This document shows, piece by piece, positions 8,799 through 29,091 of a stretch of 35,534 bases of DNA. This DNA comes from an uncultured Merdimonas sp. (GTDB lineage: Bacteria > Bacillota > Clostridia > Lachnospirales > Lachnospiraceae), in contig CALWAV010000063.1 in the NCBI GenBank assembly GCA_944375745.1, positions 1-35,534 of the forward strand, in the 5' to 3' direction. The notes beneath the pieces were generated by a model that was given only the letters and a program-made list of their open reading frames with translations, did no database searches and was not told where the DNA came from. Both the position numbers and the translations under genes were made by a program. Numbering within the stretch: position 1 is the stretch's first letter; each line of letters begins with the position of its first letter.

Positions 8799-9135
8799 GG
8801 GCTTGTACTGGTTTCGACGGGGGTCTCGCAGCTGGTGAAGCTATCCGCAGGCGATGCGTCAAATCGCAAACCTAAATATAAACGCTGAAGACAATTTAGC
8901 ATACGCTGCTTAATGGCAGCTGTCGGCCTTAGGGCACCTGCACCTTAAGAGTCCGGCATCGACGATGCGGGAAACGACATGCGTTAAGCTTTGCGCGCAT
9001 GGGCATATCATGAAGCTACTGAAGCTGTCAGGATGTCCGTTTTCGGGCAGCGGAGGGAATGACAAATAACTGACTATGATAGTAGAAGAACAGGGAACAG
9101 GCTTTCGGACAGGGGTTCGATTCCCCTCAGGTCCA
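8799..9135 (+). ncRNA. ssrA: tmRNA (transfer-messenger RNA)
   Basis: tmRNA rescues stalled ribosomes and tags the unfinished protein for proteolysis. The 5' end GGGCTTG (8799-8805) pairs with CAGGTCC (9128-9134) to form the acceptor stem. The third pair is G-U, as in tRNA-Ala, and A9135 is the discriminator. GGTTTCGACGGGGG follows the 5' strand, and the T arm AGGGG TTCGATT CCCCT lies at the 3' end. The tag reading frame starts at the resume codon GCA 8866 and ends at TAA 8911-8913, giving ANLNINAEDNLAYAA. The final LAYAA fits ClpXP/ClpAP-recognised tags. The 3' CCA is not encoded and must be added after processing. Confidence 0.95.
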
Positions 9136-9231
9136 TTTTGACCCGCATGAAGCAGGAGCTGTAAAGCTGAAATCTGCGTTTGGGTATCAGAATCCATAGG
9201 AAAGAAGGAGGAAACTCCTGAACATCTGATG

Positions 9232-21061: not shown

Positions 21062-24000
21062 ATGTATTTAAAAAGTATAGAGGTACAGGGCTTTAAGTCC
21101 TTTGCAAATAAGATTGTATTTGAATTTCACAACGGAATCACCGGCATTGTGGGACCGAACGGAAGCGGAAAGAGCAACGTGGCGGACGCGGTGCGCTGGG
21201 TGCTGGGCGAGCAGCGTGTCAAGCAGCTGCGGGGCGGCAGCATGCAGGACGTGATTTTCGCGGGCACAGAGAACCGCAGGCCCTTAAGCTATGCCTATGT
21301 GGCCATTACATTGGATAATTCGGACCACCAGCTGGCCATCGACTATGAGGAGGTCACAGTATCCAGACGCCTGTACCGTTCCGGAGAGAGTGAATATCTG
21401 ATCAATGGGACGGTCTGCCGGCTGAAGGATGTCAATGAGCTGTTTTACGATACCGGTATCGGAAAGGAAGGCTATTCCATCATCGGACAGGGCCAGATTG
21501 ACCGGATCTTAAGCAGCAGGCCGGAGGAATCCAGAGAGCTCTTTGATGAGGCCACCGGCATTGTAAAATTCAAGCGCCGGAAAAATACAGCCCAGAAAAA
21601 GCTGGAGGATGAAAAGCAGAATATTCTGCGCATCAATGACATTCTGGCAGAGCTGGAAAAACAGCTGGGGCCCCTGGAGAAGCAGTCAGAGACAGCCAGG
21701 CTGTATCTGAAGAAAAAAGAGACATTAAAAAGCTATGATGTGAATATGTTTCTTCTGGAGACGGAGCGTCTTCAGAAACAGCTTTCCGAGCTGGAGGGAA
21801 AAGCCGGGACAGCCCAGGCCAATCTGGATGAGACCAGCCGGGAGTATGAGAAGATCAAGCAGGAGCATTCCCGGATTGAGGAAGAACTGGAAGAATTGAA
21901 TACCAGTCTGGATTCCGCAAAGGAGGCTGCGTCTCAGAATGATCTGAGCCGCCAGCAGATGGAGAACCAGATCGAGCTTCTGAAAGAGCAGATCAAATCC
22001 GTGCGTTCCGGAGCAGAGCAGAAGCAGGGCCGGCTTTCTGCCATCGGAGAAGATGTTCTGGAGCGCCGTGAGGCCAGAAAGCGCTTCACCGAGGAGCAGA
22101 AGCAGCTGGATGCCCAGTTAAAGGAAGTTACCTCTGTGTCCAGAGAGGCAGGAGAAAAGCTGAAGGAGCTCAGGGCTCAGATTGACAGCCTGAATCTGAA
22201 GTCTGAGCAGAGCAAAAATGAGATCATCAGCCTTCTGAATGAGCGTGCCTCCACAAAGGGGCGTCTGCAGCGGTATGATGCCATGCAGGAGCAGGCGCAG
22301 CTGCGGAAATCAGAGCTGACTCAGAAGCTTCTGGAGGCAAAGACAGGGGAAGAAGCCCAGAAAGCATCCTATGAGAAGCATCAGCAGGAGCTGATGGAAA
22401 TCAGCTCCAGAATTCTGGATTTGACAGCTTCCCAGAGAGAGAAGGAAGAAGAGGCGGAAGGCTTCCGCAGGCAGCTGGGAAAACTGAATGAAGAGCTGGA
22501 AATCGGCCAGAGTGCCTTTCACCGTGAATCTTCCAGGCTGGAATCCCTGCGCAATATGGCAGAGCGCTATGACGGCTATGGGAACAGCATCCGCAAAGTC
22601 ATGGAGCAGAAGGGAAAGCACCCGGGAATCCTTGGAGTGGTGGCAGATCTGATCCGGGTGGATCAGAAATATGAGACGGCTGTGGAGACAGCTCTGGGCG
22701 GCAATATCCAGAATATTGTCACTGATAATGAAGAGACAGCTAAGGACATGATCTCCTACCTGAAAAAGAACCGGTTTGGACGGGCCACCTTCCTGCCCTT
22801 GACCAGCGTGGGAAACAGAGATAATTTCCCAAGGAAAGAAGCACTGAAAGAAGAAGGAGCGGTGGGGCTGGCCAGCACACTGGTGGAGACAGAGGAAAAA
22901 TACGCAGGAATTGTAAACTATCTGCTGGGCCGGGTGCTGGTGGCGGAAAATATCGATGACGCCATAGCCATCGCCCGGAAATACAATCATTCCCTTCATA
23001 TTGTCACGCTGGAGGGCGAGTATTTAAGCCCCGGAGGATCCATGACAGGAGGAGCCTTCCGCAATTCCAGCAACCTGCTGGGCCGGCGCCGGGAGCTGGA
23101 AGAGCTGGAAGAAAATGTACGCCGTCTGGACCGGGATATGAAGGAAGCCCGGGAGAAGATTGAAGAGCTGAAAGAGAAACGGCGCAGTGTCCGCCGGGAA
23201 GCAGAAGAGCTGAATACCCGTCTTCAGGAACAGTTCCTGCTTCAGAATACGGCCAAGCTGAACGCGGATCAGGCAGAAAAACGTCTGCAGGAAATAGAGA
23301 CAGATTGTGAAGGATTGCAGACAGAACTGGCCCAGATCGAGGAGCAGTTCCGGGACATCCAGACCAGCCGGGAATCCATTACAGAAGAACTGACAGCATC
23401 GGAAAAGCAGGAAAAAGAGAATGAAGAACGGATTTCCAAAGCGCAGGAAAGCCTGGAGGAGCTGAAAAAGCAGGAGGCAGACTGCATCAAGAAAGCGGAG
23501 GAGATTCATCTGGAGGTGGCAAATCTGACCCAGAAAGCAGAGTTTGCCGGAGAAAATGTGGCCCGTATCGACAGAGAGCTGGACCGCCTGCGCCTGGAAG
23601 AAGAAGATCTGAAGGCCGGCGTGCAGGAAGGCGATAAAGATGTGAGGGCCAAGGAGGAGAGCATCCTTGCGCTGACAGGCCAGATCGGCCAGCTGACTGC
23701 CAGAAGTGAGGAGCTGGAGAAGAAGACGGCAGAGCTTTCCGGAAAGCGGGAGGCGCTTTTAAGCGGCCAGAAAGAATTTTTCTCCAGAAGAGAAGAACTG
23801 TCCGAGCAGAAGACGCTGCTGGACCGGGAAGTCTTCCGCCTGAACAGCCAGCGGGAGAAGCTGGAAGAGGCGGCCGACGCCCAGGCAGGTTACATGTGGG
23901 AGGAATATGAGCTTACCTATAATATGGCTCTGCCTCTCCGCAATGAGGAGTACACCGATCCGGGAAGCCTGAAAAAGCAGATTGCCTCCCTGAAGGATGA

Positions 24001-24622
24001 GATCCGGAAGCTGGGCGATGTGAATGTAAATGCCATTGAGGATTACAAAAATATTTCCGAGCGCTACACCTTCATGAACAATCAGAGAAATGATCTGGTC
24101 AAGGCAGAAGAGACATTGCTTGGAATCATCAAGGAACTGGATACCGGCATGCGCCGCCAGTTCGAAGAGCAGTTTGCAAAGATCCGCGTGGAATTCGACA
24201 AGGCCTTCAAGGAATTGTTCGGCGGCGGAAAGGGAACGCTGGAGCTGGAGGAGGACGCGGACATTCTGGAAGCGGGAGTCCGGATCATTGCCCAGCCGCC
24301 CGGAAAGAAGCTGCAGAATATGATGCAGCTTTCCGGAGGTGAGAAGGCGCTGACAGCCATTTCCCTGCTGTTTGCCATCCAGAATCTGAAGCCTTCGCCC
24401 TTCTGTCTGCTGGATGAGATCGAGGCGGCGCTGGACGATTCCAACGTGGGACGGTTTGCGAAATACCTACACAAGTTGACAAATAATACGCAGTTTATTA
24501 TCATTACACATAGAAAAGGAACGATGGAGGCCGCGGACAGGCTGTATGGAATCACCATGCAGGAAAAGGGCGTGTCAGCCCTCGTTTCCGTAAACCTGAT
24601 AGAAGAAGAGCTGGATGAATAA
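21062..24622 (+). CDS. smc: Chromosome segregation protein SMC
   Basis: A 1186-aa condensin ATPase that compacts and separates chromosomes with ScpA and ScpB. Walker A GPNGSGKSNV is at 31-40. Long coiled coils run over about 165-510 and 675-1010, separated by a hinge (about 515-670) with HPGILGVVADLI and SPGGSMTGG. The C-terminal head contains LSGGEKALTAISLLFAI (signature, about 1091) and FCLLDEIEAALDD (Walker B, about 1113-1125). It starts 11 bp after rnc, in the rnc-smc-ftsY order usual in Firmicutes. Confidence 0.97.
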   Translation: MYLKSIEVQGFKSFANKIVFEFHNGITGIVGPNGSGKSNVADAVRWVLGEQRVKQLRGGSMQDVIFAGTENRRPLSYAYVAITLDNSDHQLAIDYEEVTVSRRLYRSGESEYLINGTVCRLKDVNELFYDTGIGKEGYSIIGQGQIDRILSSRPEESRELFDEATGIVKFKRRKNTAQKKLEDEKQNILRINDILAELEKQLGPLEKQSETARLYLKKKETLKSYDVNMFLLETERLQKQLSELEGKAGTAQANLDETSREYEKIKQEHSRIEEELEELNTSLDSAKEAASQNDLSRQQMENQIELLKEQIKSVRSGAEQKQGRLSAIGEDVLERREARKRFTEEQKQLDAQLKEVTSVSREAGEKLKELRAQIDSLNLKSEQSKNEIISLLNERASTKGRLQRYDAMQEQAQLRKSELTQKLLEAKTGEEAQKASYEKHQQELMEISSRILDLTASQREKEEEAEGFRRQLGKLNEELEIGQSAFHRESSRLESLRNMAERYDGYGNSIRKVMEQKGKHPGILGVVADLIRVDQKYETAVETALGGNIQNIVTDNEETAKDMISYLKKNRFGRATFLPLTSVGNRDNFPRKEALKEEGAVGLASTLVETEEKYAGIVNYLLGRVLVAENIDDAIAIARKYNHSLHIVTLEGEYLSPGGSMTGGAFRNSSNLLGRRRELEELEENVRRLDRDMKEAREKIEELKEKRRSVRREAEELNTRLQEQFLLQNTAKLNADQAEKRLQEIETDCEGLQTELAQIEEQFRDIQTSRESITEELTASEKQEKENEERISKAQESLEELKKQEADCIKKAEEIHLEVANLTQKAEFAGENVARIDRELDRLRLEEEDLKAGVQEGDKDVRAKEESILALTGQIGQLTARSEELEKKTAELSGKREALLSGQKEFFSRREELSEQKTLLDREVFRLNSQREKLEEAADAQAGYMWEEYELTYNMALPLRNEEYTDPGSLKKQIASLKDEIRKLGDVNVNAIEDYKNISERYTFMNNQRNDLVKAEETLLGIIKELDTGMRRQFEEQFAKIRVEFDKAFKELFGGGKGTLELEEDADILEAGVRIIAQPPGKKLQNMMQLSGGEKALTAISLLFAIQNLKPSPFCLLDEIEAALDDSNVGRFAKYLHKLTNNTQFIIITHRKGTMEAADRLYGITMQEKGVSALVSVNLIEEELDE

Positions 24623-24630
24623 AGGCTTTT

Positions 24631-24653
24631 CGGGCAGATAACAGCTCTGCCCG
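24631..24653. repeat. Intra-operon hairpin between smc and ftsY
   Basis: CGGGCAGA (24631-24638) pairs with TCTGCCCG (24646-24653). There is no T run. It may adjust the relative amounts of smc and ftsY mRNA, or may have no role. Confidence 0.4.
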
Positions 24654-24688
24654 GATTCCGTCAGATCATATGACAGGGGGAAAGAAAC

Positions 24689-25621
24689 ATGCCGGAAGAG
24701 AAGAAAGGTTTTTTCAGCCGTCTGGTGTCTGGCCTGGCCAAGACACGGGCAAATATCGCAGCCGGAATAGACAATATTTTCAGCGGCTATTCGGCCATAG
24801 ACGATGATTTTTACGAGGAGATAGAAGAAATCCTCATCATGGGTGATATCGGCATCAATGCCACTACAGCGATTCTGGAGGATCTGAAGCGCAAGGTAAA
24901 GGAGCAGAAGATTAAAGATCCTTCCGAGTGCAAGCAGCTTCTGATGGACAGTATCCGGGATCAGATGCAGGTGGGCGAGGTGGCTTACCGGTTTGAGCAG
25001 GAGAAATCCGTGGTGCTGGTGATCGGAGTCAACGGCGTGGGCAAGACCACGTCTGTGGGCAAGCTGGCCGGAAAGCTGAAAAGCCAGGGGAAAAAGGTGA
25101 TACTTGCAGCTGCGGATACTTTCCGGGCGGCAGCGGGAGAACAGCTGACCGAATGGGCCAACAGGGCCGGAGTGGATATTATCAGCGGCTGTGAAGGAGC
25201 GGATCCGGCGTCTGTGGTATATGACGCGGTCTGCGCGGCAAAGGCCCGTCATGCGGATGTGCTGCTCTGTGATACGGCGGGCAGACTTCACAATAAGAAA
25301 AATCTGATGGAAGAGCTTCGGAAAATCAACCGCATTATTGACAGAGAATACCCGGAGGCCTTCCGTGAGACTCTGGTGGTGCTGGATGGAACCACAGGCC
25401 AGAATGCCCTGGAGCAGGCCCGCCAGTTTAAGGAAGTGGTGGATATCACAGGCATCATTCTGACCAAGCTGGACGGAACCGCGAAGGGCGGCATCGCAGT
25501 GGCCATCGAATCGGAACTGGGTATTCCGGTTAAGTATATCGGAGTGGGGGAAAGCATTGAGGATCTGCAGAAGTTTGACGCGGACGAATTTGTGAACGCG
25601 CTGTTTCATCAGGATAAGTAA
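24689..25621 (+). CDS. ftsY: Signal recognition particle receptor FtsY
   Basis: A 310-aa SRP-GTPase that docks ribosome-SRP complexes at the membrane. The acidic A domain common in FtsY is almost absent; the protein begins directly with the N domain (about 5-100). The G domain has GVNGVGKTT (113-121), DTFRAAAGEQL, CDTAGRLHNKKNLMEEL (G3), TKLDGTAKGG (G4) and KYIGVGESIEDLQKFD at the end. The ffh partner is about 8 kb downstream. ilvA starts 15 bp after its stop and may be read from the same transcript. Confidence 0.96.
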   Translation: MPEEKKGFFSRLVSGLAKTRANIAAGIDNIFSGYSAIDDDFYEEIEEILIMGDIGINATTAILEDLKRKVKEQKIKDPSECKQLLMDSIRDQMQVGEVAYRFEQEKSVVLVIGVNGVGKTTSVGKLAGKLKSQGKKVILAAADTFRAAAGEQLTEWANRAGVDIISGCEGADPASVVYDAVCAAKARHADVLLCDTAGRLHNKKNLMEELRKINRIIDREYPEAFRETLVVLDGTTGQNALEQARQFKEVVDITGIILTKLDGTAKGGIAVAIESELGIPVKYIGVGESIEDLQKFDADEFVNALFHQDK

Positions 25622-25636
25622 AGGAGAGACGAGAGT

Positions 25637-26848
25637 ATGCTTACATTAGAGAAATTTGAAGAAGCTTCAGAGGTGGTAAAAAAGGTCGCCATAGAGACCA
25701 AGCTTCTGTACAGCCAGTATTTCAGCGAGCAGACAGGCAACAAGGTCTATCTGAAGCCGGAAAATATGCAGGTGACAGGAGCCTATAAGATCCGCGGCGC
25801 CTATTACAAAATCAGCACGCTGACCGAGGAAGAGCGCTCCAAGGGGCTGATTACGGCTTCTGCCGGAAACCATGCCCAGGGAGTGGCCTATGCGGCAAAG
25901 GCTTACGGCGTAAAGGCGGTTATCGTGATGCCGACTACCACACCTCTTATGAAGGTGGAGCGTACCAAGAGCTATGGCGCGGAAGTGGTGCTGTACGGCA
26001 ATGTCTATGATGAAGCGTGTGAGCATGCCTATAAGCTGGCCGAGGAATACGGCTATACCTTTATTCATCCCTTCGATGATCTGGCTGTGGCCACCGGACA
26101 GGGAACCATTGCCATGGAGATCGTAAAGGAACTGCCCCTGGTAGATTACATTCTTGTGCCCATCGGAGGAGGCGGCCTGTGTACCGGTGTGTCCACCCTG
26201 GCAAAAATGCTGAATCCCAATATCAAGGTAATCGGCGTGGAGCCTGCGGGAGCCAACTGTATGCAGGTATCCCTGAAAAACGGAAAAGTGACGACCCTTC
26301 CCACAGTGAATACCATCGCAGATGGTACGGCTGTGAAGACGCCGGGCGAGAAGATCTTCCCGTATATTCAGAAAAATGTGGATGATATCATCACAGTTAC
26401 GGATGATGAACTGATCGTGGCTTTCCTGGATGTGGTGGAAAATCACAAAATGGTGGTGGAGAATTCCGGACTTCTGACGGTTGCGGCTCTGCGCCATATG
26501 AATGTACAGGGAAAGAAAATCGTATCTATCTTAAGCGGCGGCAACATGGACATTATCACCATGTCTTCTGTAGTACAGTTTGGCCTGATTCAGAGGGATC
26601 GTATCTTTACGGTATCCACCATGCTTCCGGACAAGCCGGGACAGCTGGTGCAGGTGGCTCAGCTGATTGCCGAGGAGCAGGGCAATGTCATCAAGCTGGA
26701 TCACAATCAGTTTGTCAGCACGAACCGAAACGAAGGCGTGGAGCTGCGCATTACGATAGAAGCTTTTGGAACCGAGCACAAGAACCGGATCGTAAAGCGT
26801 CTGGAAGAGGGCGGCTTCCGGCCGAGACTTGTGAAGATTATGATGTAA
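25637..26848 (+). CDS. ilvA: Threonine ammonia-lyase (PLP-dependent, ACT-type)
   Basis: A 403-aa enzyme that deaminates threonine to 2-oxobutyrate. The PLP lysine is Lys51 in TGAYKIRGAYYK. The phosphate-binding glycine loop is in VPIGGGGLCTG. SAGNHAQGVAYAAK is another family block. The C-terminal 75 residues (MLPDKPGQLVQVAQLIAEEQG onward) form a single ACT-like regulatory domain, so this is the shorter form seen in Clostridia (about 400 aa) and not the 500-aa E. coli biosynthetic IlvA. It may serve isoleucine synthesis or catabolism; tdcB is an alternative symbol. The gene follows ftsY by 15 bp with AAGGAGAG before the ATG. Confidence 0.92.
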   Translation: MLTLEKFEEASEVVKKVAIETKLLYSQYFSEQTGNKVYLKPENMQVTGAYKIRGAYYKISTLTEEERSKGLITASAGNHAQGVAYAAKAYGVKAVIVMPTTTPLMKVERTKSYGAEVVLYGNVYDEACEHAYKLAEEYGYTFIHPFDDLAVATGQGTIAMEIVKELPLVDYILVPIGGGGLCTGVSTLAKMLNPNIKVIGVEPAGANCMQVSLKNGKVTTLPTVNTIADGTAVKTPGEKIFPYIQKNVDDIITVTDDELIVAFLDVVENHKMVVENSGLLTVAALRHMNVQGKKIVSILSGGNMDIITMSSVVQFGLIQRDRIFTVSTMLPDKPGQLVQVAQLIAEEQGNVIKLDHNQFVSTNRNEGVELRITIEAFGTEHKNRIVKRLEEGGFRPRLVKIMM

Positions 26849-26933
26849 ATTATCATTTTGCAGGGTTCCCCTGATATGCATAGTTATGTTATTCTTAGAA
26901 ATAATAAAGATATATGACATTGGGAGGTAAACG

Positions 26934-28223
26934 ATGAAGAAATTTACTTACGTTGTTTCAAATCCAAGAGGTGTTCACGCGCGTCCCTGCGCTCTGCTGG
27001 CACAATGCTGCACGAATTTCAAAAGCATGGTGACAGTAAGCACCGATGAAAAGACGGCGTCTGCTCAGAATGTACTGGAGCTGATGGCTCTGGGAGCGGT
27101 GAAAGGAGATGTTCTGACCTTCCAGATTGAAGGGGAGGATGAGGAGCAGGCTCTCGAAGCGATTCAGGATGTGCTGAACAAGAGCTTTAATGAAAAGAAA
27201 ATATCCGGAATTCTGAAAGTAGCCTTTTTCGGAACCAAAGATTACGACAGAATTTTCTTCAGTGAGCTGGAAAAGGATAAAGGGGAAGGGGCCTATAATG
27301 TGGAGATCAAGTATTTCAGCTCCAATCTGGGCCCTGAGACAGCAGGTCTTGCCAAAGGCTATGACGCGGTCTGCATTTTCGTAAATGACGATGCTTCCAG
27401 ACCGGTAGTAGAGCAGCTTCATGACAATGGAATCCGGCTGATTCTGCTTCGCTGCGCCGGATTCAATAACGTGGATCTGGATGCTGCAAAGGAGTACGGA
27501 ATTACGGTGCTCCGTGTGCCTGCCTATTCGCCTTACGCGGTTGCCGAGCATGCCATGGCAATCCTTCAGGAGGCCAACCGCCATCTGCACAAGGCTTATA
27601 ATAAGGTAAGGGACAATAATTTTGCGCTCAGCGGTCTTCTCGGACTGGACCTGCACAACAAAGTGGCAGGCATCATCGGAACCGGAAAGATCGGTATCTG
27701 CATGGCCCGGATCTGCAAGGGATATGGAATGACTGTGCTGGGCTGGGATGCTTATCCCAACCAGAAGCTGGTAGACGAGGGACTGCTGACCTATGTGGAT
27801 AAAGACGAGCTGTTCCAGAAGGCAGATCTGATTTCTCTGCATGCGCCCCTATTCCCGTCCACGTACCACATCATCAATGAGAAGAGCATCGCCATGATGA
27901 AAAATTCCGTGATGCTGGTAAATACTGCCCGGGGAGGCCTGGTAGACACAGAGGCGCTGATCGCCGCCCTGAAGCAGGGAAAATTCCACGCAGTTGCGCT
28001 GGATGTGTATGAAGGCGAGGACAATAATGTCTATACAGACCGGAGCGATGAGGCTATCTCCGAGGATATCACGGCCCGTCTTCTGATGTTCCCGCAGGTG
28101 GTTCTGACCAGCCATCAGGCGTTCTTTACCCGTGAGGCCATGCAGGCCATTGCGGTCGTAACCATGGAAAATGCCCGCAACTTCAACGAGGGCAATGACT
28201 ATGGGGACGCAGAGGTGAAATAA
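26934..28223 (+). CDS. HPr-like domain fused to D-2-hydroxyacid (D-lactate-type) dehydrogenase
   Basis: A 429-aa fusion. Residues 1-88 form a complete HPr-like domain that aligns without gaps to classical HPr: His15 in GVHARP is kept, while position 46 is Asn (AQNVLELMALG) where HPr has the regulatory serine. Residues 93-425 form a D-lactate dehydrogenase-type NAD enzyme: Rossmann motif GTGKIG (249-254), NAD-selecting Asp272 in GWDAYP, Arg333 in NTARGGLVD, Glu362 in DVYEGED and His394 in LTSHQAFFT. The Arg-Glu-His spacing (29 and 61) equals that of D-LDH. The substrate may be pyruvate or another 2-oxoacid. A single uninterrupted frame with GGGAGG before the ATG supports a true fusion. The HPr part might accept phosphate at His15 from Enzyme I and couple sugar uptake to fermentation; this is inference. 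Confidence 0.9.
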   Translation: MKKFTYVVSNPRGVHARPCALLAQCCTNFKSMVTVSTDEKTASAQNVLELMALGAVKGDVLTFQIEGEDEEQALEAIQDVLNKSFNEKKISGILKVAFFGTKDYDRIFFSELEKDKGEGAYNVEIKYFSSNLGPETAGLAKGYDAVCIFVNDDASRPVVEQLHDNGIRLILLRCAGFNNVDLDAAKEYGITVLRVPAYSPYAVAEHAMAILQEANRHLHKAYNKVRDNNFALSGLLGLDLHNKVAGIIGTGKIGICMARICKGYGMTVLGWDAYPNQKLVDEGLLTYVDKDELFQKADLISLHAPLFPSTYHIINEKSIAMMKNSVMLVNTARGGLVDTEALIAALKQGKFHAVALDVYEGEDNNVYTDRSDEAISEDITARLLMFPQVVLTSHQAFFTREAMQAIAVVTMENARNFNEGNDYGDAEVK

Positions 28224-28259: not shown

Positions 28260-28267
28260 AAAAAAAG

Positions 28268-28390
28268 CGTATAAGGGAGTAGTTGGCGTCTTCGGGCGTG
28301 ACAGAATCAACACATTGGCCAGAGCCTGGTTTTGTATGAAATGACGAGACTTATCCGCAGAGTATCTCTGCGGGAAGGTCTCTTTTTTTA
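28268..28390 (+). promoter_or_regulatory. yybP-ykoY manganese riboswitch upstream of mntP
   Basis: The leader has the conserved parts of the yybP-ykoY aptamer: GGGAGTAG (28275-28282), the TCAACAC loop (28307-28313) with GGCCAGAGCC-like pairing after it, and a closing region that runs into a terminator hairpin (28346-28389). This class binds Mn2+ and usually switches gene expression on. The downstream gene encodes a Mn2+ exporter, which agrees well. Assignment is by eye; exact helix boundaries are not fixed. Confidence 0.85.
28346..28389 (+). terminator. Riboswitch expression-platform terminator
   Basis: GAGAC (28346-28350) pairs with GTCTC (28378-28382), and within it CCGCAGAG pairs with CTCTGCGG around a TAT loop, followed by a seven-T run. 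It stands between the aptamer and mntP, so metal binding would have to disfavour it to turn the gene on. Confidence 0.85.
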
Positions 28391-28509: not shown

Positions 28510-29091
28510 ATGGGATTACTGGAATTGTTTGTACTGGCAGTGGGACTGTCCATGGATGCTTTTGCGGTATCAGTCTGTAAGGGATTGAGTGTGCGGAAGG
28601 CAGGAATCAAAGAGTGCTGCATCACAGGTTTGTATTTTGGAGGATTTCAGGCTCTGATGCCTGCAATCGGTTATTTCCTGGGCGTTCAGTTCCGGGAGTA
28701 CATAACAAGCATTGACCACTGGATCGCCTTTGTTCTGCTGGGAATCATCGGCTTTAATATGATTCGGGAGTCCAGAGAAAAGGAGAGCGGTTCCGAGGAT
28801 GTCTGTCCAAAGGAGGAGCATCCCTTTGCGGTAAAGAGCATGCTTCTCCTGGCGGTTGCCACAAGCATCGATGCCCTGGCGGTGGGAATTACGCTGGCTT
28901 TTTTGAAGGTGAACCTGGCGGCATCGGTCAGCTTTATCGGGGTGACGACCTTTATTATTTCAGCCATCGGAATCCGCATTGGAAATATCTTTGGAATGAA
29001 GTATAAGGCAAAGGCGGAGCTGGCCGGCGGTGTAATTCTGATCTGCATGGGCCTGAAGATTCTGCTGGAGCATCTGGGCATTCTTGGGTAA
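28510..29091 (+). CDS. mntP: Manganese efflux pump MntP
   Basis: A 193-aa membrane protein that exports Mn2+. It has six hydrophobic segments in two related halves, each starting with the family signature: [15 protein letters not shown] near the N terminus and [14 protein letters not shown] in the middle; the aspartates are metal-binding candidates. Length matches MntP (about 190). AGAGGAG precedes the ATG at 28510. Control by the yybP-ykoY riboswitch just upstream is the known arrangement for this family. Confidence 0.94.

Follow-up and report, generated by a model that had tools for sequence, protein, structure and literature searches.

An HPr domain joined to an LdhA-type D-lactate dehydrogenase as a putative sensor of the phosphotransferase state in cis

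As read from its sequence, a gene of an uncultured Merdimonas sp. (Lachnospiraceae) encodes an HPr domain that is joined to a complete LdhA-type D-lactate dehydrogenase in one chain. We propose, at about even confidence, that the covalent HPr of this LdhA-type enzyme would act in cis, via His15, as a sensor of the phosphorylation state of the phosphotransferase system (PTS). The gene lies in a stretch of 35,534 nucleotides (contig CALWAV010000063.1) that was analysed as a whole and is called the window here; its features are the following.

26922..26927, + strand: GGGAGG, putative ribosome-binding-like stretch 6 bases 5' of the ATG (suggested by direct reading of the sequence)
26934..28223, + strand: whole gene of the HPr-D-lactate dehydrogenase fusion, 429 residues, stop included (ORF list, Pfam, 65 distinct full-length copies)
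26934..27185, + strand: HPr domain, residues 1-84 (PF00381, residues 3-82, E = 3.8e-24; predicted HPr order of strands and helices)
26976..26978, + strand: His15 codon CAC, PTS phosphorylation site (His in 65/65; zero changes on the enzyme tree)
27069..27071, + strand: Asn46 codon AAT, in the position of Ser46, the residue marked by HprK in HPr (N 55, D 5, S 4, E 1; n = 65)
27186..27212, + strand: linker, residues 85-93 (variable alignment columns; mean pLDDT of 75 for the block of residues 81-90)
27213..28220, + strand: LdhA-type D-lactate dehydrogenase domain, residues 94-429 (PF00389 and PF02826; 45-47% identity to solved LdhA-type enzymes)
27930..27932, + strand: codon of catalytic Arg333 (Arg in 65/65)
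28017..28019, + strand: codon of catalytic Glu362 (Glu in 65/65)
28113..28115, + strand: codon of catalytic His394 (His in 65/65)

The original prediction of an HPr fused to a complete D-2-hydroxyacid dehydrogenase was borne out, with the Pfam domains above their cut-offs in one open reading frame of 429 residues. The frame opens with ATG, and the curated cut-offs were exceeded by PTS-HPr (residues 3-82, profile positions 2-80 of 81, E = 3.8e-24), by 2-Hacid_dh (PF00389; 103.2 bits, E = 1.1e-29) and by 2-Hacid_dh_C (PF02826; 168.4 bits, E = 1.4e-49); besides these, Pfam returned just a weak NAD-binding match. Among the 25 NCBIfam matches listed, the HPr model TIGR01003 was the sole one over its cut-off, no D-lactate dehydrogenase model reached its strict cut-off, and none covered the whole chain. 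The sequence has no in-frame ATG near the junction between HPr and enzyme, which makes it unlikely that the enzyme part is translated on its own. AlphaFold2, run with 56 aligned sequences, gave a mean pLDDT of 86.1 and a pTM of 0.73 for the fusion protein; the secondary-structure elements of its HPr part follow in HPr order, with block means of 86-92 pLDDT over residues 1-80.

The enzyme part probably makes D-lactate, to judge from its relatives. In a Foldseek comparison with the PDB, the best 18 rows were LdhA-type D-lactate dehydrogenases of Fusobacterium, Pseudomonas, Escherichia and Salmonella at 45-47% identity; D-2-hydroxyacid dehydrogenases fill the 50 listed PDB fold rows because the enzyme part dominates a whole-chain query. 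The eight best sequence matches to solved structures are likewise D-lactate dehydrogenase-like chains, which start at query residue 94 or 95. Arg333, Glu362 and His394, named from the window's copy at the outset, are present in all 65 distinct fusions, and R173 and H206 are invariant with them.

A search for the same architecture across Lachnospiraceae, as originally suggested, found the fusion to be recurrent. At E ≤ 1e-60, 176 of 397 genomes of the window's family contain a match; among the matches listed, those of 13 genomes, the window's own included, are full length (query 1-428 or 1-429), and the remaining ones start at about residue 66-96, corresponding to the enzyme without HPr. Beyond the window's own genome, no match at E ≤ 1e-120 was seen in 391 genomes of the class. 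A scan of genome contigs identified 57 full-length fusions among the best 80 of 489 relatives. Adding the hits of the family search and a second copy of the locus in the window brought the total to 71 full-length open reading frames, corresponding to at least 65 distinct fusions. According to the labels, which are the submitters' own, the records belong to Lachnospiraceae, Erysipelotrichaceae and Oscillospiraceae. Records without a metagenome-assembled genome (MAG) label include Lachnoclostridium An131 and An138, Lachnospiraceae NK4A144, MC2017, KH1T2 and KH1P17, Floccifex porci and [Clostridium] spiroforme An567; among the MAGs are some labelled Erysipelotrichaceae, Solobacterium, Oscillibacter and, once, Selenomonadaceae. 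With 65 distinct copies, several of them in non-MAG-labelled records, chance or an assembly artefact is ruled out.

When 104 enzyme domains (65 fused and 39 labelled unfused) were placed in a tree, the fusions formed one clade with a support of 100/100 and a stem of 0.42. The lone 'unfused' row inside this clade, L090, is a locus cut by a contig end, and owing to it two label changes are counted on the tree. Within the clade, rows with Lachnospiraceae, Erysipelotrichaceae and Oscillospiraceae labels are intermingled, which suggests gene transfer after a single fusion. A split form is found in two genomes of one genus (G348 and G030), in which a separate HPr gene precedes that of the dehydrogenase at a distance of 80 and 102 bases, in the same order as in the fusion and on the same strand. 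The separate HPr proteins retain His15 and Arg17 and have Cys at position 18 and Gln at position 46. These two loci (L020 and L021) are the only ones with an HPr open reading frame in the fetched flanks of 38 unfused enzyme rows. A tree of HPr domains, poorly resolved with its 84 columns and including 29 of the 65 fused domains, groups these 29 with the two split-locus HPrs and L153 at 88/85, below the tool's starred support. Set apart from the fused domains are a group of HPrs encoded next to Enzyme I (99/91, 14 of 15) and a Crh-like group (99/98).

The HPr part of the fusion drifts except around its phosphorylation site. Mean pairwise identity across the fusions is 51% for the HPr part versus 76% for the enzyme part, and the corresponding tree lengths are 15.2 versus 6.1 changes per site. 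By parsimony on the enzyme tree, HPr sites average about 11 changes each, whereas G13, H15, A16 and R17 do not change at all; the chance of all four falling among the 7 unchanged of 81 HPr sites is 2e-5. His15, Arg17, Gly13, Ala16 and Ser31 are each found in 65/65 fused domains and Pro18 in 64/65, so that the random loss of His15 among homologues, named beforehand as an outcome that would speak against the idea, was not found, and the claim of an intact His15 extends to every copy. As the unchanged sites are a hallmark of HPrs in general, the constraint is HPr-like and is not proof of one mechanism.

The invariance of His15 suggests that sugar uptake may tune the enzyme directly. In the PTS, the level of phosphorylated HPr (HPr-P) follows the PEP/pyruvate ratio. 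The attached enzyme would consume pyruvate and NADH, and with an HPr of its own it could sense this ratio in cis. In the mechanism that we propose, His15 of the fused HPr would receive its phosphate either from PEP via Enzyme I or in an exchange with free HPr-P, and its occupancy would track the PEP/pyruvate ratio. According to its phosphorylation state, the domain would then alter how active or how cooperative the attached oligomeric enzyme is. As to direction, our guess leans slightly towards lactate being favoured by the unphosphorylated form, which would go with fast sugar uptake and high pyruvate, and restrained by the His-P form. The absence of Ser46 from most copies should stop HprK from adding a second mark. 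The fullest version of this reading, in which a His15-P receiver reports PEP/pyruvate to the D-lactate dehydrogenase, Asn46 bars HprK, and lactate overflow becomes a post-translational PTS switch in gut and rumen Firmicutes, is put forward tentatively, at somewhat less than an even chance. Two observations from other systems bear on these steps. In one study, the LdhA-type enzymes of three bacteria are described as cooperative, two of them as activated by fructose 1,6-bisphosphate and Mg2+, and their physiological effectors are called uncertain by the authors (PMC4230899). A precedent for contact between HPr and an enzyme of the pyruvate node is the direct binding of dephospho-HPr to PykA of V. 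vulnificus (PMC5987630).

Position 46 of the fused domain is occupied by Asn in 55, Asp in 5, Ser in 4 and Glu in 1 of the 65 copies, with six changes on the enzyme tree. The original prediction had treated the loss of Ser46 as a mark of the fusion that would free it from HprK. Non-Ser residues are indeed found in 61/65 fusions, but the state of free HPrs qualifies the claim. We examined 16 Lachnospiraceae genomes (13 with the fused, 2 with the split and 1 with the plain enzyme). Enzyme I was found in 16/16 and thus in 13/13 fused ones, HprK in 15/16 (none was seen in G030, which is 86% complete) and free HPr matches in 16/16. The free HPr matches number 72 (87 rows minus 13 fused and 2 split), of which 47 were tabulated; the table leaves out two stronger ones (G380:C10 and G249:C15) and 23 short matches that are weak, with E above 1e-8. 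By comparison of positions, 15 HPrs in 14/16 genomes have an Enzyme I match no more than 4 kb away, and 12 of these 15 have Lys or Arg at position 46, the other three (L121, L125 and L130) Ser. In the Lachnospiraceae genomes examined, Enzyme-I-adjacent HPrs thus mostly lack Ser46, and its absence is not peculiar to the fusion.

The remaining tabulated HPrs comprise 15 Crh-like proteins with Ser46, in which position 15 is Glu in 10, Asp or Ser in 3 and unaligned in 2, 12 proteins with His15 and Ser46, and five with His15 and Lys, Arg or Asp at position 46. The window's own genome contains an Enzyme-I-adjacent HPr with His15 and Arg46 (L002), a Crh-like protein (L001) and an HPr with His15 and Ser46 (L003). 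A division of HPr labour into three kinds is thus seen in Lachnospiraceae, in L001-L003 of this genome and in L117-L164. This split of roles suggests that the logic of HPr worked out in Bacillus may not apply in many Lachnospiraceae.

Eight further genomes (G776-G783) were reached via fused loci with other labels. All five of Erysipelotrichia type (G776-G780) have HprK, a fused domain with Asn46 and a free HPr that retains both His15 and Ser46. The free Ser46 and HprK, set against the fused Asn46, make insulation from HprK meaningful there; by these sequences the fused domain should lie outside the reach of HprK and the host HPr inside it. The proposed escape from HprK is thus plausible for this group, but in Lachnospiraceae the loss of Ser46 is not specific to the fusion. 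In G781 and G782 (Oscillospiraceae labels) and G783 (Selenomonadaceae label), position 46 of the HPr by Enzyme I is Gln, Lys or Gly; among these three, HprK was seen in G782 only, and the fused domain of G783 has Ser46. Enzyme I was found in 7/8 of the further genomes. The one without a match, G779, has a fused HPr (L078) with Leu at position 18, where Pro18 is lost, and Lys at position 69. A sub-branch of the fusions (L064-L067, L015 and L016) has Asp or Glu at position 46; in these 6/65 fusions the acidic residue might be a permanent mimic of Ser-P and could hinder Enzyme I.

The side of the domain that would face Enzyme I is less basic than in Enzyme-I-adjacent HPrs. Counted over contact positions that we take to be those of the E. 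coli complex, the mean net charge is +1.5 for the fused domains (n = 65) versus +4.9 for the Enzyme-I-adjacent HPrs (n = 15), +2.8 for the other His15/Ser46 HPrs and +1.3 for the Crh-like proteins (n = 15). With fewer basic residues, docking of Enzyme I may be weak and phosphorylation of the fused domain poor; the phosphate may instead come from free HPr. The lost basic residues also fit an alternative in which HPr is a structural or allosteric module in cis that is no longer phosphorylated, its loop being kept since this face docks on the dehydrogenase. Cys26, present in 62/65 fused domains versus 0/42 tabulated free HPrs, points the same way, as do 33 enzyme positions that are conserved in the fusions and rare in 17 unfused Lachnospiraceae enzymes, 18 of which are also rare in all 38 unfused rows. 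However, His15 and Arg17 are a phospho-transfer pair, both of which an interface need not keep in 65/65 copies, and the separate HPr of the split loci retains them as well. We consider this alternative unlikely, although it is the best of those that compete with a phosphorylated sensor.

Improbable in our view is a role of HPr as a docking tag, which would place the dehydrogenase next to Enzyme I for immediate reduction of the pyruvate that the PTS generates there. Enzyme I turns PEP into pyruvate, which it releases, and this established property would suit such an arrangement; so would the occurrence of Enzyme I in most hosts examined and the hydrophobic residues found at positions 47, 48 and 51 in nearly all fused copies. 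The same loss of basic face residues that favours an unphosphorylated module speaks against docking here, free HPr would compete for Enzyme I, and the channelling is itself putative.

The gene surroundings bear on a further alternative and on physiology. Clustering of up to three neighbouring genes per side was possible for 58/65 loci, many with short flanks; in the other 7 a simple gene caller missed the fused gene. No neighbour family recurs in more than 6 of the 58 usable loci, and among the ten recurrent families listed, lactate permease alone was identified. The permease-like gene lies directly upstream of the fusion in 6/58 loci (L049, L052, L058, L060, L061 and L063), divergent in five and on the same strand at a distance of 43 bases in L063; PF02652 was confirmed in two of the six (L060 and L063). 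No such gene stands beside the fusion in the window. With regard to other lactate dehydrogenases, an N-domain of L-lactate/malate dehydrogenase was not seen in 9 of the 13 fused Lachnospiraceae genomes, was below cut-off in 1 and clear in 3, the window's own being one of these three. The fusion may thus be the main lactate dehydrogenase in the nine. No second LdhA-like match at E ≤ 1e-60 was found in the 13 genomes among the four candidates scored per genome.

Upstream of the fused gene, a Rex-like TTGTKAANNNNTTMACAA with at most 2 mismatches occurs in 7/65 fused regions and at 2/2 split loci; both L020 and L021 have TTGTTAAAGTATTGACAA, a Rex-like site overlapping a TTGACA box. For the window's gene, Rex control is not claimed, as its best site has 4 mismatches to TTGTKAANNNNTTMACAA and a quarter of the shuffles match it; a cre-like site with 1 mismatch in the window follows a consensus too loose to weigh. 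In L039-L042, the fusion is directly followed by a second D-2-hydroxyacid dehydrogenase-like open reading frame, which shares 34-36% identity with the enzyme part. The genes upstream in the window (21062-26848, + strand) encode a probable SMC-like protein, FtsY and threonine ammonia-lyase, the last ending 85 bases before the fused gene. Downstream, at 28262-28388 (+ strand), weak Rfam matches below threshold (yybP-ykoY Mn2+ riboswitch, 11 bits; Streptococcus sRNA SSRC10, 26.7 bits) precede a gene for MntP manganese efflux at 28510, and a tmRNA gene is found at 8799-9138 (+ strand; 134 bits).

A bifunctional protein, in which an extra PTS phosphocarrier was fused by chance to a D-lactate dehydrogenase in the manner of multiphosphoryl transfer proteins, would fit the intact His15 and Arg17, and a survey mentions HPr within fusion proteins (PMC2405797). 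We hold it to be doubtful, however, as every genome examined that carries the fusion contains one or more additional HPr matches, the HPr tree places the fused domains away from the Enzyme-I-adjacent HPrs, and no neighbour family exceeds 6/58 loci in the clustering of neighbours. A fortuitous or decaying fusion with a functionless HPr part, to which the fast divergence of this part and the slight erosion in L078 might point, is strongly disfavoured by the four unchanged residues G13, H15, A16 and R17 in 65 copies and by retention of the fusion in records of three family labels, and we regard it as very improbable.

Returning to the HPr as a cis-acting sensor, we infer support for it from the single clade, the invariant sites, the HPr of the split loci, the Enzyme I of the hosts and the permease neighbours. 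The less basic face, the copies with Asp or Glu at position 46, the lack of an Enzyme I match in G779 and the fact that split loci are not general may count against it.

Explanations of how such bacteria control lactate formation usually invoke transcription (Rex, CcpA) or small-molecule effectors. If the sensor reading is true, a covalent PTS receiver would couple D-lactate output to sugar uptake with no need to make new protein. This would be relevant to D-lactate production in the rumen and hindgut, and the fusion would provide a single-chain system for measuring HPr-enzyme contact. Some LdhA-type enzymes would also gain a physiological effector, which the study of three such enzymes calls uncertain (PMC4230899).

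Both domains of the fusion, as well as contact of HPr with a metabolic enzyme, are familiar; the covalent sensor-enzyme form appears to be undescribed, and text searches of open-licence papers returned no description of an HPr-lactate dehydrogenase fusion. The LdhA-type D-lactate dehydrogenases of Fusobacterium (5z21/6abi), Pseudomonas (5z20/6abj) and Escherichia (5z1z) share the enzyme domain and its catalytic residues at 45-47% identity, but they have no HPr part, and the fused clade is set off by its long stem (0.42). With HPr, the fused domain has in common the sequence family (PF00381 over nearly its full length) and His15/Arg17; it differs from the tabulated free HPrs by Cys26 and its less basic face. 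Crh keeps Ser46. It lacks His15 (PMC3526391), and the fused domain is the reverse of Crh in 61/65 copies (His15 in 65/65, Ser46 in 4/65). In multiphosphoryl transfer proteins of the FruB and DhaM type, HPr is likewise a domain of a larger chain. Their partner domains are EI and/or IIA, whereas the partner here is a metabolic oxidoreductase, and Pfam finds no EI or IIA; in a 2008 survey, HPr is described as a single polypeptide or as part of fusion proteins, usually with a IIA domain (PMC2405797). The nearest functional likeness may be pyruvate kinase A of V. vulnificus, where the state of HPr is likewise read by an enzyme of the pyruvate node (PMC5987630). There, free HPr binds in trans, whereas the HPr of the fusion is covalently attached and its effect on the enzyme is putative.
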